NCBI RefSeq assembly: GCF_014127285.1
Contig: NZ_CP059901.1
Span: 2,480,001-2,544,000 of the forward strand
DNA: 64,000 bases
Source of the DNA: Mumia sp. ZJ1417
GTDB lineage: Bacteria; Actinomycetota; Actinomycetes; Propionibacteriales; Nocardioidaceae
Direction of reading: 5' to 3'
Both the position numbers and the translations under genes were made by a program. Every line of letters begins with the position of its first letter. Position 1 is the first letter of the stretch. This document shows, one piece after another, positions 8,393 to 59,672 of this stretch. The notes beneath the pieces were generated by a model. It ran no database searches, was not told the DNA's origin, and saw nothing but the letters and a program-made list of their open reading frames with translations.

Positions 8393-8467
8393 CCGCCCCA
8401 CGATTTGACGCCTTGCCCACCGTTCGCGGGGCGCATTCGGTGGGCAACGCGTCAAATCGCGGGGCGG
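8393..8467. repeat. Palindromic element A, copy 1 (intergenic)
   Basis: Arms 8393-8422 and 8438-8467 pair over 30 nt with two mismatches around a 15-nt loop. The inner 22 nt of the arm (8401-8422) align without gaps to the arms of the copies at 16.8 kb and 30.6 kb, sharing CGATT and CCACCG at the ends. It lies between two divergent genes, so it is not a simple terminator. Confidence 0.85.
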
Positions 8468-13142: not shown

Positions 13143-13964
13143 GTGCCCGAGGGCGACGCCGTCTGGCGTACGGCACGCCGGCTCGACAAGGCGCTACGTG
13201 GCGCCACCCTCGTCCGCACCGACTTCCGCGTCCCCCAGCTCGCAACCCTCGACCTCGCCGACGAGGCGGTGCACGGCGTGACGAGCCGCGGCAAGCACCT
13301 CTTCGCCCGGATCGGCGACGTCTCGCTCCACACGCGGCTCGGCATGGACGGCTCGTGGCGGACGTACGACGCTGGTGCCCGTTGGTCTCGACCGGCGCAC
13401 GAGGCGCGGGTGGTGCTCGCGACCGAGCGTGTCCAGGCCGTCGGCTTCCTGCTGCCGACGGTCGAGCTGCTGTCGCTCGAGCAGGCCGACGCGGTCCGCG
13501 CGCGACTCGGCCCCGATCTGCTCGATCCGGAGTTCGACGCCGCCGAGGCGCTGCGTCGGGTGGTCTCCGACCCGGGACGCAACCTCGGCGAGGCGCTGCT
13601 CGACCAGAGCAACCTCGCGGGTGTCGGCAACATCTTCCGCAACGAGATCCTGTATGTCCGCGGGCTCCACCCCGACACCACGGTCGGCGACGACCCCGAC
13701 CTCGCCCGTACGGTCACGACGGCGCGGCGCATGCTCCTCGCGAACCGCGACTACCCCGCGATCGTCACCACGGGCATCGACCGGCGTGGTCAGCGCACGT
13801 GGGTGTACGGGCGGGGCGGCGAGCCGTGTCGCCGCTGCGGCACACGCATCGAGCGGCGCACCCCTGTCGTGACGCAGACCCACGGCGTCGAGGAGCGCGT
13901 CACGTACTGGTGCCCGCACTGCCAGCCCTCCCCCACCTCCGTCGTCGTCGCGTCCGCGTTGTGA
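13143..13964 (+). CDS. nei: Fpg/Nei family DNA glycosylase (endonuclease VIII)
   Basis: A 273-aa bifunctional glycosylase/AP lyase that removes oxidised bases. The mature N-terminus PEGDAV supplies the catalytic Pro and Glu. The helix-2-turn-helix is near LLDQSNLAGVGNIFRNE, and a zinc finger closes the protein (CRRC ... WCPHC). GTG 13143 is required to place Pro at position 2. It lies three bases after lhr, as in mycobacteria. The last codons and the stop fall inside palindromic element B (from 13950), so the C-terminal residues after the zinc finger derive partly from that repeat. Confidence 0.93.
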   Translation: MPEGDAVWRTARRLDKALRGATLVRTDFRVPQLATLDLADEAVHGVTSRGKHLFARIGDVSLHTRLGMDGSWRTYDAGARWSRPAHEARVVLATERVQAVGFLLPTVELLSLEQADAVRARLGPDLLDPEFDAAEALRRVVSDPGRNLGEALLDQSNLAGVGNIFRNEILYVRGLHPDTTVGDDPDLARTVTTARRMLLANRDYPAIVTTGIDRRGQRTWVYGRGGEPCRRCGTRIERRTPVVTQTHGVEERVTYWCPHCQPSPTSVVVASAL

Positions 13965-14023
13965 AGGCAATCTGACCGAACTGACCGGCGGAAACGGTCA
14001 GGTTGCTTTCACAACGCGGACGC
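13950..14023. repeat. Palindromic element B, copy 1
   Basis: Arms 13950-13978 and 13995-14023 are 29 nt with two differences, both compatible with G-U pairing. The core GTTGTGAAAGCAACCTGACC is nearly identical to the element at 41.4 kb. It overlaps the end of nei and lies between convergent genes, so it may act as a bidirectional terminator. The 190 bases from here to clgR hold nothing else recognisable. Confidence 0.85.
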
Positions 14024-15815: not shown

Positions 15816-17447
15816 TCAAGAATCACCGACCGTGGTCGACGCCTTCTCGGAGCCGTCTGCGACGCGCCGCGCCTTGCCACCGTTCACCGCCACTGTGGCG
15901 GCGTCGGCCCTTCCGACGGACACCTTGGCGGGCCCGACGACGCTGACGCGCTTGAACTCCCCCTTGGCGATGTCGCCCGTCCAGATCGTCGCGCCCGTCC
16001 CGTCGGTGACGGTGATCTTGGTGGGCTTCTTCTCCTTGCCACGGATGAGGAGATGGTTCGTGGTCGGGGCACCGAGACCGGCCAGCGACGACGGGTCGGT
16101 AGGCGGCGGCGCGACCTCGGTCGGGACGGCCGCGGGGGCGTCGGCATCGTCCCCGTTGCCGACGACGAGCTGCCCGATCCCCCAGATGATCGCGAGCACG
16201 AGGACGACGACAGTCACGGCGAGCCAGCTCCGGCCGCCGCGGGCGACGCGGATGGTCTGCGAGCCCGTCGCACGCTCGGCCTCGAAGACGGCACGAGCCG
16301 GGATCGGGGCCTGGGCGTACGAGGCGTCGTAGCGGGCGATCCACGGCGCGGGGTCGGCGCCGAGGGCGCGGGCGAGTGAGCGGAGGTGCCCGCGGGCATA
16401 GAAGTCGCCCCCGCAGGCCGACACGTCGTCAGCCTCGAGGGCTTCGATCACGTGAGGGCGGATACGGGTGCGCTCAGCAAGCCCGTCGATCGAGACTCCC
16501 GCGCTCTCGCGAGCGGTACGGAGGAGGTCGCCGAGGCCGGGAACGGTCTGCACGGTCTCAGACTCCGCGTCTTCCGGCTCGGACTCGGGCGCTGGCTCGT
16601 CGACCACGAGCGGAGGGGCAACGCGTGCCGCCGGGGCATCGATGACCAGCTCGGGGCGGCCACGGCTGGCACGCAGGGCGGTGACGACCTTGTATCCCGG
16701 GGCGAGCGCGGAGCTGCCCACGCTCTGGACCAGGCCGAGGTCGATCCGGGCAGGGGCGCTGACGGTGGGTTCGACAAGATCAGGGCCGCCCTCTCGTCCC
16801 CGATTCGGTCGATTCTCCACCGGATCCGGCTCGTCATTCGGTGGAGAATCGACCGAATCGGGGACGGGAGGGGCGGGATCGGGGACGGGAGGGATCGAAT
16901 CGGGGACGGGAGGGACGGGGGCGGCGGGATCGGGTCCGTCCTGCGGATCCGGGTCCGGCTCGACCACGATCTCGTCGTCGCCCGACAGCTGCCGCAGGGC
17001 GGCGGCCACGTCCTCGCTGCTCGCCCGTACGGCCAGCCCGAGCGGCACCACGAACGCCGTGCCGTCGGAGGCGACCACGTCGATCGCGCCGTCCGCGAGC
17101 AGGCCGCGCGGCTCCGCGAGCACGATGTGGTCGACGTCCGCCCACGGGAAGCCCCGCCACGCGTCACCGTGCCGGACCCGAACCCCGAGCGAGTCCGCGA
17201 CCAGCAGCGGGCTCCGGGCGTCGAACCAGCCGCGCCCGGCGAGCAGGCCGCCGCCCGCGAGCAGTCCCGCGACCAGCCAGAGCAGCATCGACCCTTCGGC
17301 GGCGCGCACGGCGTACGCGATCGCGAGCACACCCGCACCCACCGCGACGAGGGCCAGCACGCCGGCGCTGCGGCGTACCTCCAGCACCTCTCCCGCCCCC
17401 GTACCTGCGGGGTCGGGCGTTCGTCCCTGCTCCAGCCGATCCGTCAT
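15816..17447 (-). CDS. RodZ-like membrane HTH protein with extra N-terminal membrane/PH-like module
   Basis: A 543-aa composite. Residues about 305-370 form a RodZ-type helix-turn-helix (LGDLLRTARESAGVSIDGLA). A membrane helix lies at about 407-430, and a DUF4115 beta domain ends the protein. This part is the usual neighbour of ftsK and probably links the cell-wall or cytoskeleton machinery to the membrane. Unusually it is preceded by two helices (27-47, 53-71), a PH-like strand region (about 80-150), and a Pro/Asp-rich linker (160-230). The linker is encoded by a 21-nt tandem repeat and a 27-bp perfect palindrome. The start lies one base after the ftsK stop. The fusion could be an old merger of two adjacent genes; no frame break is visible. 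Confidence 0.85.
   Translation of the reverse strand: MTDRLEQGRTPDPAGTGAGEVLEVRRSAGVLALVAVGAGVLAIAYAVRAAEGSMLLWLVAGLLAGGGLLAGRGWFDARSPLLVADSLGVRVRHGDAWRGFPWADVDHIVLAEPRGLLADGAIDVVASDGTAFVVPLGLAVRASSEDVAAALRQLSGDDEIVVEPDPDPQDGPDPAAPVPPVPDSIPPVPDPAPPVPDSVDSPPNDEPDPVENRPNRGREGGPDLVEPTVSAPARIDLGLVQSVGSSALAPGYKVVTALRASRGRPELVIDAPAARVAPPLVVDEPAPESEPEDAESETVQTVPGLGDLLRTARESAGVSIDGLAERTRIRPHVIEALEADDVSACGGDFYARGHLRSLARALGADPAPWIARYDASYAQAPIPARAVFEAERATGSQTIRVARGGRSWLAVTVVVLVLAIIWGIGQLVVGNGDDADAPAAVPTEVAPPPTDPSSLAGLGAPTTNHLLIRGKEKKPTKITVTDGTGATIWTGDIAKGEFKRVSVVGPAKVSVGRADAATVAVNGGKARRVADGSEKASTTVGDS
16796..16865. repeat. Palindromic element A, copy 2 (inside the RodZ-like gene)
   Basis: Arms 16796-16822 and 16839-16865 are perfectly complementary over 27 bp around a 16-nt loop. 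The inner 22 nt (16801-16822) align with the other element A arms, sharing TTCTCCACCG exactly with the copy at 30.6 kb. It is translated in frame into linker residues around 206-229 of the RodZ-like protein. Confidence 0.9.
16858..16914. repeat. 21-nt tandem repeat encoding a PPVPDxx linker
   Basis: TCGGGGACGGGAGGG recurs exactly at 16858, 16879 and 16900, a period of 21 nt or seven codons. On the coding (minus) strand it encodes repeats of PPVPD plus two variable residues. The plus strand has many runs of three to five G, so G-quadruplex formation is possible. The array begins inside the right arm of element A copy 2. Confidence 0.85.
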
Positions 17448-29675: not shown

Positions 29676-31307
29676 TTACGCACCCTTCACAACGGGCTCA
29701 CGCGAGGGCGTGGCGGTCTGTGAGCCGCCCTCACCGCCGGTCGAGACTCCCTCACCGCCGGTCGAGCCGCCCTCACCGGCGGTCGAGCCTGTCGAGACCA
29801 CCAGCCAGTCCGCGATCCCACGCACGAGCGACACGCAGCCCCCGCAGCCGGTGGTCGCGCGCGTGGTGGCCGCGAGCGCGTCGACGGAGCACGCCCCGCC
29901 GTCCCACGCCGCGACCAGGTCACGCTTGGTCACGCCGTTGCAGCGGCACACCGTCGTGCTGCCCGGCATCGTGGTGGGCGACCCGGCGGCGGCGTCGGCC
30001 TGCCCGGCGCTCGGCGCGAGGAGCTGCAGCGGGTCGAGCGGGACGACGCCCGGCCGCCCGTACTGGACGCTCAGCGACGCTGCGAGCTCGGCGGCTCCGA
30101 GGCAGGTCATCCCGACCAGCTCGTCGCCGTCGAGGACGACCTCCACGTAGCGGCGCGCGTACGGGTCGCTCATCGTCAGCACCCGCGCCCCGTCGGCGCA
30201 AGACGCCTTCCGCCCCATCGCGACGAGGCTGAGCCCGGCCGCCTTGAGGCGCATGGCGGCGCCGTCGACGACCACGGGTGCAGGGTCGGCCGCGGTGCCG
30301 CCGTCGGTGAGCCGCCGAGCGAGTGCGCGGGCCTGCTCCCACCCGGGTGCGACGAGCCCTGAGACCCCCGACGGCGTCTGCGCGCAGTCGCCGATCGCGT
30401 GGATCGCCGGGTCGTATGTGGTCGTCAGGTCGTCGCCGACGACGATCCCGTGGGCGACCTCGAGTCCGGCGGCACCCGCGAGGGCGGTCTCGGGGACAGC
30501 CCCGGCCGCGAGGACGACGAGGTCAGCCGCGAGCGTACGACCGTCGTCGAGCACCACCGCCTCCACGTGGCCGCCTCGTCCCCTCCACGATTTGACGGGT
30601 TCTCCACCGGTTGAGGGCACCGATTGGGGGGACAACCCGTCAAATCGTGGAGGAGCGCAGGTCACGCCCGCGAGCGCGGCGTTGCCGTGGAACGTGATGC
30701 CGAGGTCGGAGACCGCGTCGGCGAGCAGCCGGCCGGGCGCGGGGTCGAGGTCGCGGTCGAGGAGGTGCCCCGCGAACGAGATCACCTCCACCGCGACTCC
30801 CCGCAGCCGCATCCCGCAGGCGACCTCGACACCGAGCGGACCGCCCCCGACGACGACGGCACGCCGGGCGTTGAGCGCGGCGGCGGTGATGCCGCGGGCG
30901 TCGTCGACCGAGCGCAGCGCGAAGACGCCACCGGGCAGCGGGTCGCCCGGAGCGCCGTCGAGGCCCGGGACGCGCAGCACCCGCGCCCGCGCGCCGGTCG
31001 CCAGGACGAGGTGGTCGTACGGGATGGGCTCGCCGTCCACCCACACCGTACGGGCGCCACGGTCGATCCCGTCCACCCGCGCGCCGAGCCGTACGGTCAC
31101 CCCGGCCGGCCGCGGCAGCACGAGGCTCGCGAGCTCCGCGCGCCCGGCGACGAGCTCGGTGAGCAGGATCCGGTTGTACGGCTCGTACTCCTCCTCCCCC
31201 AGCACCAGCACGTCGAACCGTCCCTCGCGGTCGGCGCGTGCGAGCTCCTCGGCGAATCGGGTGCCGACCATGCCGGCCCCGACGACCACCACCCGCTCGC
31301 GCGTCAC
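29676..31307 (-). CDS. nasB: FAD-dependent electron-transfer subunit of assimilatory nitrate reductase
   Basis: A 543-aa NAD(P)H/FAD oxidoreductase (VVVVGAGMVGTRFAEEL; VVVGGGPLGVEVACGM; HAIGDCAQ) with a C-terminal BFD-like [2Fe-2S] domain (CRCNGVTKRD ... TGCGGC). It most likely feeds electrons to NasA next door. Two oddities: residues about 217-242 are extra peptide encoded by palindromic element A, placed between strands where homologs have a short loop. After about residue 505 the protein continues as seven-residue STGGEGx repeats from a 21-nt tandem array. It overlaps nasA by four bases. The nasB/nasC naming differs between species. Confidence 0.88.
   Translation of the reverse strand: MTRERVVVVGAGMVGTRFAEELARADREGRFDVLVLGEEEYEPYNRILLTELVAGRAELASLVLPRPAGVTVRLGARVDGIDRGARTVWVDGEPIPYDHLVLATGARARVLRVPGLDGAPGDPLPGGVFALRSVDDARGITAAALNARRAVVVGGGPLGVEVACGMRLRGVAVEVISFAGHLLDRDLDPAPGRLLADAVSDLGITFHGNAALAGVTCAPPRFDGLSPQSVPSTGGEPVKSWRGRGGHVEAVVLDDGRTLAADLVVLAAGAVPETALAGAAGLEVAHGIVVGDDLTTTYDPAIHAIGDCAQTPSGVSGLVAPGWEQARALARRLTDGGTAADPAPVVVDGAAMRLKAAGLSLVAMGRKASCADGARVLTMSDPYARRYVEVVLDGDELVGMTCLGAAELAASLSVQYGRPGVVPLDPLQLLAPSAGQADAAAGSPTTMPGSTTVCRCNGVTKRDLVAAWDGGACSVDALAATTRATTGCGGCVSLVRGIADWLVVSTGSTAGEGGSTGGEGVSTGGEGGSQTATPSREPVVKGA
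29728..29802. repeat. 21-nt tandem repeat plus REP-like element at the 3' end of nasB
   Basis: CCCTCACCGCCGGTCGAG starts at 29728 and 29749 and, with one change, at 29770: a period of exactly 21 nt. The last unit runs into GGTCGAGCCTGTCGAGACCA (29781-29800), the reverse complement of the REP-like sequence in nirD. It encodes the STGGEG repeats of NasB. Confidence 0.8.
30582..30653. repeat. Palindromic element A, copy 3 (inside nasB)
   Basis: Arms 30582-30601 and 30634-30653 are perfectly complementary over 20 bp. The 22 nt from 30588 to 30609 align with the other element A arms: the first ten equal copy 1 and the last ten equal copy 2. The inner part of the right arm has drifted, leaving a 32-nt loop. 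It is read in frame within nasB. Confidence 0.9.
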
Positions 31308-34958: not shown

Positions 34959-35002
34959 ACGTCATACGTTCCGTGGCCCCTGGACCACGGAACGTATGAC
35001 GT
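34959..35002 (-). terminator. Long hairpin after rnj
   Basis: Arms 34959-34976 and 34985-35002 are perfectly complementary (18 bp, ACGTCATACGTTCCGTGG) around an 8-nt loop. It begins 15 bases after the rnj stop on the minus strand and precedes narK. No T-run is present. Confidence 0.7.
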
Positions 35003-37698: not shown

Positions 37699-37742
37699 TG
37701 TCCCGGTGCTGCCCGTTCGGGGGCCCGGGCAGCACCGGGACA
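37699..37742 (-). terminator. Long hairpin between dfrA and dapA
   Basis: Arms 37699-37715 and 37726-37742 (TGTCCCGGTGCTGCCCG) are perfectly complementary over 17 bp around a 10-nt loop. It sits 66 bases after the dfrA stop on the minus strand and ends 70 bases before the dapA start, so it most likely ends the thyA-dfrA transcript. Confidence 0.7.
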
Positions 37743-41413: not shown

Positions 41414-41485
41414 CGTCCGCGTTGTGAAAGCAACCTGACCGAATCGCGTCCCGAATTCGGTCAGGTTGCTTTCACAACGCGGACG
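41414..41485. repeat. Palindromic element B, copy 2
   Basis: Arms 41414-41444 and 41455-41485 are perfectly complementary over 31 bp around a 10-nt loop. The arm shares GTTGTGAAAGCAACCTGACC with the right arm of copy 1 at 14 kb. It lies between azlD (plus) and dapB (minus), a convergent junction, and can serve as a bidirectional terminator. Confidence 0.92.
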
Positions 41486-59391: not shown

Positions 59392-59672
59392 GGGTACCCC
59401 TTTCTCACGCGCATCCGCGCGTGGGTCTCGCGGAGCAGTCACGCGAGCGGGTCGTGCGCACCTTCGTGGGTGCGCCGGCTCCGATGGGCGCCGGTCTTCG
59501 ATCGAGGTCCGCGAAGTGCGAGCGTCTCGTACGCCGCCATCCGCAAGCCACTACCGAGGACCGAGCGTCGACCCGGGCGCTGCTCCGTCTGTGAGGTGGT
59601 GCGATATGAAGTTGTCAGGTCGAGGATGTCCTTGAGCCCAGTCTGCCTGAGCCCGGACCCCTCGTGCATGCG
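59392..59672 (-). promoter_or_regulatory. Structured leader region of pnp
   Basis: Most of the 324-bp gap between rpsO and pnp. It contains perfect hairpins CACGCGC/GCGCGTG (59406-59423, 4-nt loop) and GCGCACC/GGGTGCG (59456-59474, 5-nt loop) just before the pnp start. Enterobacterial pnp is autoregulated through leader hairpins; a comparable role here is inference only. No small gene or recognised promoter is seen in the rest. Confidence 0.4.

Follow-up and report, generated by a model that had tools for sequence, protein, structure and literature searches.

The gene at 29676..31307 on the minus strand of the window (the whole stretch of 64,000 nucleotides of Mumia sp. ZJ1417 DNA that was analysed) encodes a protein of 543 aa with Pyr_redox_2 and BFD-like [2Fe-2S] domains, as expected for a NasB-type subunit. 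The name nasB, as well as nasA for its upstream and nirB for its downstream neighbour, is a presumptive one given on the basis of the ORF sequences. Within the gene, a palindrome designated as type A lies in frame at 30582..30653 (minus strand). It has 72 bases in total, with two 27-nt arms (30582-30608 and 30627-30653) paired at 25 of 27 positions (93% complementary) around a loop of 18 nt. The palindrome exceeds chance expectation: its arm score is 21 (scoring +1/-2), and the best hairpin among 30 dinucleotide-shuffled windows scored 15 in a scan that required three paired bases beside the loop and allowed loops of at most 26. Folded as RNA of the coding strand, it reaches -55 kcal/mol (z = -8.6), a stability equalled by none of 200 shuffles. 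The inserted stretch translates as ...GVT-CAPPRFDGLSPQSVPSTGGEPVKSWRGRG-GHV... and leaves the nasB reading frame intact. No Rfam match at gathering score was found over the element; the sole such match in the window is the Actino-pnp RNA (RF01688) at 59490-59565 on the minus strand, above the gathering score. A second repeat-derived extension of nasB is present at 29722-29790, where 21-bp tandem repeats encode its repetitive C-terminal tail (STGGEG...).

NasB homologues were searched for at the protein level in 39 genomes, including the own genome (G000). The close homologues in the congeners G001, G003, G004, and G005 each appear as two matches meeting at the would-be place of the segment, with a short, GVTHSDGHV-like junction; in G002, the fifth congener, a close nasB is lacking. 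In DNA alignment, nasB of G000 has a net gain of 78 nt, i.e., 26 codons. As the segment is missing from all four congeneric homologues, the palindrome is a lineage-specific insertion, private to its own lineage among the genomes sampled. The closest of the four congeners compared is G004, with 84-87% DNA identity around nasB, and it has no nasB insert either. No target-site duplication is recognisable at this one site, the empty counterparts of which have diverged. The sequence-only reading had placed an in-frame palindrome inside the NADH/FAD module of nasB with exact coordinates, its module assignment agrees with the domains matched, and its estimate of about 26 extra residues with the frame kept is borne out by the alignment. 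It had also suggested aligning NasB homologues to see whether they share the segment at the protein level, and none of the four congeneric ones does. Its view of an older insertion is not supported, as the palindrome is absent even from G004.

The nasB palindrome belongs to a dispersed family whose members are palindromes roughly 60-90 nt long (59-89 nt measured) and have paired ends. Three types were distinguished according to their signatures, namely type A with CCACGATTTGACGnnTTnTCCACCG (the nasB and 8.4-kb copies), type B with CGTCCGCGTTGTGAAAGCAACCTGACCGAATC (the 13.95-kb and 41.4-kb copies), and type C with CGTCCCCGATTCGGGCnGTTCTCCACCG (the 16.8-kb copy), and they have 7, 13, and 18 matching places in the own genome, respectively. 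In the window, a solo type A palindrome lies between two ORFs at 8393..8467. Solo palindromes of type B overlap the 3' end of a coding-like ORF at 13950..14023 and lie 17 nt from the stop codon of another at 41414..41485. The type C palindrome at 16789..16872 (minus strand) is again in frame, within a RodZ-like gene (15816..17447, minus strand) with HTH_25 and RodZ_C domains, of which it occupies the variable linker; the congeners have other low-complexity sequence at this place of the linker. G004 lacks all five window palindromes at the corresponding sites. We confirmed the arm identities pointed out earlier, which link the nasB element to the 8.4-kb copy through CGATTTGACG and to the 16.8-kb copy through TTCTCCACCG. 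These three copies, regarded then as related though mosaic, do belong to a dispersed family; grouping of the first two into type A and of the third into type C offers a simple reading of the mosaic look. The palindrome types, the preference for gene 3' ends, and the cognate nuclease-like genes described below had not been noticed in that reading.

Several other repeats were seen in the window. In the RodZ-like linker, tandem repeats of 21 bp at 16851-16924 adjoin the type C palindrome and look like repeated duplications of its outer end. A near-perfect palindrome of 44 nt at 34959-35002 is outside types A-C and has a close counterpart in G004. Another palindrome, TGTCCCGGTGCTGCCCGTTCGGGGGCCCGGGCAGCACCGGGACA, is at 37699-37742, and its counterparts in G005 and G001 retain the loop with the stem altered on both sides.

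Most copies in the own genome are situated at gene 3' ends, so coding insertions are exceptions. When 29 of the 31 copies were counted (A_3690 and B_1056, misplaced by the hairpin finder, were dropped), 22 had the stop codon of a coding-like ORF no more than 80 nt away, compared with 39 of 400 random positions, and 7 had stop codons on both sides. The GC filter for gene-spanning copies is insensitive, the nasB copy itself having escaped recognition as gene-spanned. At the 3' ends of the A-type gene and of the gene that we take to be meaB, the stop codon is supplied by CGATTTGA of the element. Across 28 of the 31 elements (A_3690, B_1056, and B_258 dropped), 98 of 168 frames are stop-free, which leaves room for copies that survive in frame. 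When nine A copies were aligned with the 16.8-kb C copy, 11 of 25 pairs proved to have changed on both sides, and the covariation score was reached by none of 500 shuffles, although the structure was derived from the same ten-copy alignment, which favours this result.

Types A, B, and C each bracket a gene for their own AbiEi-like/DUF559 (Vsr-like) protein. One gene of about 900 bp (G000:C1:792151-793053) lies between two A copies and another (1486485-1487366) between two B copies, both outside the window. The DUF559 profile (PF04480) matched the C-terminal part of all four proteins compared with 24.2-29.0 bits (cut-off 20.6), and PADLOC AbiEi models match the N-terminal half (E down to 1.8e-14). 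The core R-x-DLVY...VEYDG..H...R..D..RR is invariant in thirteen relatives. Matches to solved structures were weak (best E 0.12), and a single-sequence structure model of the relative L232 was useless (pLDDT 34). When the A protein was used to search six Mumia genomes, 30 relatives were obtained. All 12 close-clade genes (at least 60% identity, six Mumia genomes) are flanked on either side by a long palindrome at a hairpin score of at least 13, a threshold lowered after first use of 14, at which 10 of 12 are bracketed and L245 and L247 each lose one side. Long palindromes on both sides were found in 13 of 20,000 control spans, which were random spans of the same size, not real genes, and ignore the 3'-end preference. 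Around the 12 genes, the upstream palindrome precedes the start by 28-83 nt and the downstream one lies at -43 to +20 nt relative to the stop; in one case (L243), palindromes of different types lie on the two sides.

Among all 30 loci, 21 score as both-sided and 20 are credible; L253 was rejected as both-sided since its upstream hairpin is a poly-G/poly-C tract. The 18 distant relatives have credible palindromes on both sides in 8 cases, on one side in 3, and on none in 6, plus the L253 artefact, with L250 and L261 probably undercounted due to poorly set gene ends. They often carry quite different palindromes, e.g., GGCGGTGAGCCTGGTCCCACC or TGGGGTACCCCAG. Distant Mumia DUF559-like genes with their own unrelated flanking palindromes were seen at L256, L254, L260, L252, L258, L261, and L265. 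The long poly-G/poly-C tracts at L253 (1144-1362), beside a G004 relative, are possibly an assembly artefact.

The left and right palindromes of the same close-clade gene resemble each other with a mean score of 79, compared with 37 across genes, and none of 20,000 permutations was as good; the true partner ranked first for 6 of the 12 genes and among the top two for 10. Palindrome similarity also tracks protein identity (Mantel r 0.76, reached in 0 of 5000), a correlation of which some would be yielded by ancestry alone.

Mobilisation by a RAYT or another Y1 enzyme was considered and dropped, as no Y1 (PF01797)/RAYT domain match was obtained in any of the six Mumia genomes and the same search was positive in 5 of 14 control genomes. 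A phage or plasmid vehicle was likewise dropped. Protein relatives were absent from 72,556 plasmid records (E up to 1e-15) and from 50,697 phage records (E up to 1e-10); viral contigs gave one weak protein match of 26%, and the outer-motif pattern occurred in four of them, once each and on a single strand only.

The distribution of the types over the six Mumia genomes was compared with that of their genes. A comparison of solo copies by own-versus-other-genome similarity, in which the own genome was best or equal for 12 of 29 and which did not favour the reading as posed, was judged to be an unsuitable test, as types are shared between species, and it was replaced by a type-by-genome prediction. 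According to the prediction, made beforehand, many type A places were to be expected in G000, G003, and G005 and few or none in G001, G002, and G004. With a query trimmed by some bases relative to that named in the prediction, 7, 3, and 9 places were found in the first three genomes, respectively, and none in the others. As predicted, type A is thus found only in the three genomes with an A-bracketed gene, with a low count in G003. For type C, searched with a similarly trimmed query, the advance expectation was of many places in G000 and G004 and few in G002, G003, and G005; the numbers found there are 18, 10, 0, 0, and 2, respectively, the two in G005 being present despite the lack of a C-bracketed gene. 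G001, for which no type C prediction was made, has 6 places, two of which adjoin its own C-like genes. Type B has 13 places in G000, 3 partial or weak ones in G004, and none in the other four genomes, a pattern known before the prediction; among the 12 close-clade genes, a B-bracketed one is present in G000 only. Between species, the type of palindrome goes with that of the protein, largely in line with the prediction.

The junction between meaB and the citrate synthase gene (both names presumptive) differs among the six genomes. G000 and G005 hold the A unit there, and G003 holds a relative with 66% identity in the opposite orientation. A lone palindrome in G002 is type A-like by eye and undetected by the type A search; the palindrome of G001 is of another kind, and G004 has other sequence. 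Units and solo palindromes therefore come and go at one place.

Among 81 genomes of the family, matches to the palindrome model were found in 16 of 17 with a close protein relative and in 4 of 64 others (Fisher p 2e-12). This was tallied by hand with a close relative set at E up to 1e-60, a cut chosen after seeing the data; at 1e-50, the numbers are 16 of 20 and 4 of 61. Some of the matches are the bracketing copies themselves, and the cross-genome tests are inflated by shared ancestry. In other Nocardioidaceae genera, 24 loci revealed palindromes on both sides in 7 cases, on one side in 11, and on none in 6. Of 60 genomes sampled across the phylum, 25 had DUF559 matches. Outside the family, most DUF559 loci in the phylum are free of bracketing palindromes, and 1 of 28 was bracketed on both sides (score 15 or more). 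In a distant actinobacterium (G149), a DUF559 gene (L273) is bracketed by a different, 50-nt palindrome that has 17 places in all, i.e., the two at the gene and 15 further dispersed ones, and several copies join arms of two variants. The outer-motif pattern was found in 74 stretches from 84,980 species genomes, and 25 of them match on both strands. Nocardioidaceae (Mumia, Aeromicrobium, and uncultured members) account for 21 of these, and the remaining four are one each from Muribaculaceae, Melainabacteria, Lachnospiraceae, and Ruminiclostridium. At Lachnospiraceae loci among L160-L226, many genomes share a stretch of about 65 bp fitting the pattern, mostly on one strand.

Palindromic inserts that keep the reading frame, as well as pairs of REP and RAYT, are already known (PMC3733652). 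In REP/RAYT systems, dispersed palindromes are mostly at gene 3' ends and can supply the stop codon of a neighbour with their ends, the repeats bracket the cognate gene, and some copies are inside ORFs (PMC3733652). The Mumia palindromes are similar in being mainly at 3' ends, some supplying stop codons and some in ORFs, and in bracketing a cognate gene with its own repeat type, but this gene is not a RAYT. While the defining REP unit is 20-40 bp with an unpaired GTAG or CGTC tag, the Mumia unit is a single palindrome of 59-89 nt, with arms of about 20-40 nt and paired ends, and has no unpaired GTAG tag. In place of TnpA-REP, a Y1 HUH enzyme, the cognate protein is AbiEi-like with a DUF559/Vsr-like part, and no Y1 domain match was obtained in 6 of 6 genomes. 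The CGTC REPs have stems of 8-9 bp with an unpaired tag and no known dedicated transposase (PMC3733652); the Mumia stem is about three times longer, its CG-rich end is paired, and a candidate enzyme is present. In PMC3733652, REPs of actinobacteria are not listed and the term does not occur. Rickettsia palindromic elements (RPE) are palindromic insertions in ORFs, many of which add 20-30 residues (PMC3733652), and the lineage-specific in-frame insertion in the conserved nasB (4 of 4 homologues without it) is alike, as is the second in-frame copy in the RodZ-like linker. Short, non-coding, dispersed hairpins are also a feature of MITEs, but no parent with separated arms is among the own-genome matches to the A element, nasB shows no recognisable target duplication, and the palindromes that flank the cognate gene are complete ones, not single inverted ends. 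Known AbiEi acts together with AbiEii. The Mumia proteins resemble AbiEi antitoxins and DUF559 proteins in their domain matches and differ from known AbiEi in that the AbiEi-like domain is fused to a nuclease-like one and bracketed by palindromes. A search of the PMC literature, outside of which are most subscription papers and preprints, found no AbiEi/DUF559 proteins tied to a palindromic family. We assign the nasB element to the REP/RPE kind and not to REP/RAYT, two defining features of which were looked for and not found.

The segment in nasB is probably a REP/RPE-like non-autonomous mobile palindrome, with a cognate AbiEi-like/DUF559 nuclease, unrelated to RAYTs, as its probable mobiliser. 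Insertion into nasB, dispersal of the family, the match between palindrome type and gene, and their joint presence in different genomes are observations, and from this association, rather than from observed movement, we infer mobilisation by the cognate protein. A solo type A copy would have entered nasB after the species split from its closest sampled relatives. It would have been tolerated there, as its net 78 nt are stop-free in the frame used and the site is probably a loop that connects two strands within the NADH/FAD module. Of the several palindrome types, A, B, and C would each be served by their own AbiEi-like and DUF559/Vsr-like fusion gene. The N-terminal AbiEi-like domain may recognise the cognate palindrome, the nuclease domain may cut it as an extruded cruciform or a single-stranded DNA hairpin, and host repair or replication could finish copying into the new site. 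Vsr-like enzymes nick without a covalent intermediate, so the copying would involve a chemistry other than the HUH one used by RAYTs. Arm pairing would be maintained since recognition or movement requires the hairpin. Most new copies would persist only at gene 3' ends, and in-frame ones such as that in nasB would be rare survivors.

The strongest of three rivals to be weighed treats the palindromes as operators or terminators, with autoregulation of the gene by the AbiEi-like domain, dispersed copies acting as bidirectional terminators or mRNA-end hairpins and spread by general recombination, and the nuclease-like domain otherwise employed. AbiEi proteins are DNA-binding autoregulators, the hairpin is very stable, and the 22 of 29 copies at gene 3' ends, as well as the 7 of 29 with stops on both sides, would suit such a role. 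A palindrome is, however, also present downstream of the cognate gene, where an operator is unneeded, and the inside of nasB is no position for a terminator; by inspection of the nasB copy, no T-run follows the hairpin on either strand. The types are, moreover, numerous mainly where the cognate gene is present, and this explanation is considered unlikely. More improbable still is the spread of the palindromes by host processes alone, i.e., template switching, end joining, or gene conversion between hairpins, with the nuclease-like gene as a frequent landing neighbour or fellow passenger. A passenger would hardly give rise to both-sided bracketing of 12 of 12 genes or to a protein and a palindrome that diverge together, even if the lack of a recognisable target-site duplication at nasB fits such processes and the G149 copies joining arms of two variants suggest exchange between copies.

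A defence or restriction-like system, in which the palindromes are self marks or decoys with their number set by immunity selection, would account for the AbiEi models matching the N-terminal half and for the DUF559-like C-terminal half. It has very little probability, as the A-type gene lies between meaB and the citrate synthase gene with no AbiEii toxin gene adjacent (A-type locus only), and no relatives are present in the plasmid and phage records at the limits given above. That the segment is an ancient part of NasB, palindromic by coincidence, is hardly conceivable and already contradicted by the four congeneric homologues without it and by related DNA found again at unrelated loci, with no supporting point found.

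For the REP/RPE-like mobile palindrome with a cognate nuclease, a wider reading has about even chances: the orphan AbiEi-like/DUF559 proteins of Actinomycetota would include a hitherto unrecognised palindrome-mobilising class, each member of which spreads its own hairpin type within the genome by nicking or cutting with the help of host repair. The class would have no relation to the HUH RAYTs in its enzyme chemistry and yet be convergent with them, and the nasB insert would be its footprint. A palindromic family with in-frame copies here has a candidate enzyme of another superfamily than RAYT. With this candidate, several gene/palindrome pairs within a single genus, and four relatives in which the site is empty, the movement of palindromic repeats becomes testable in a cultivated genus, and the orphan family DUF559 gains a possible function.
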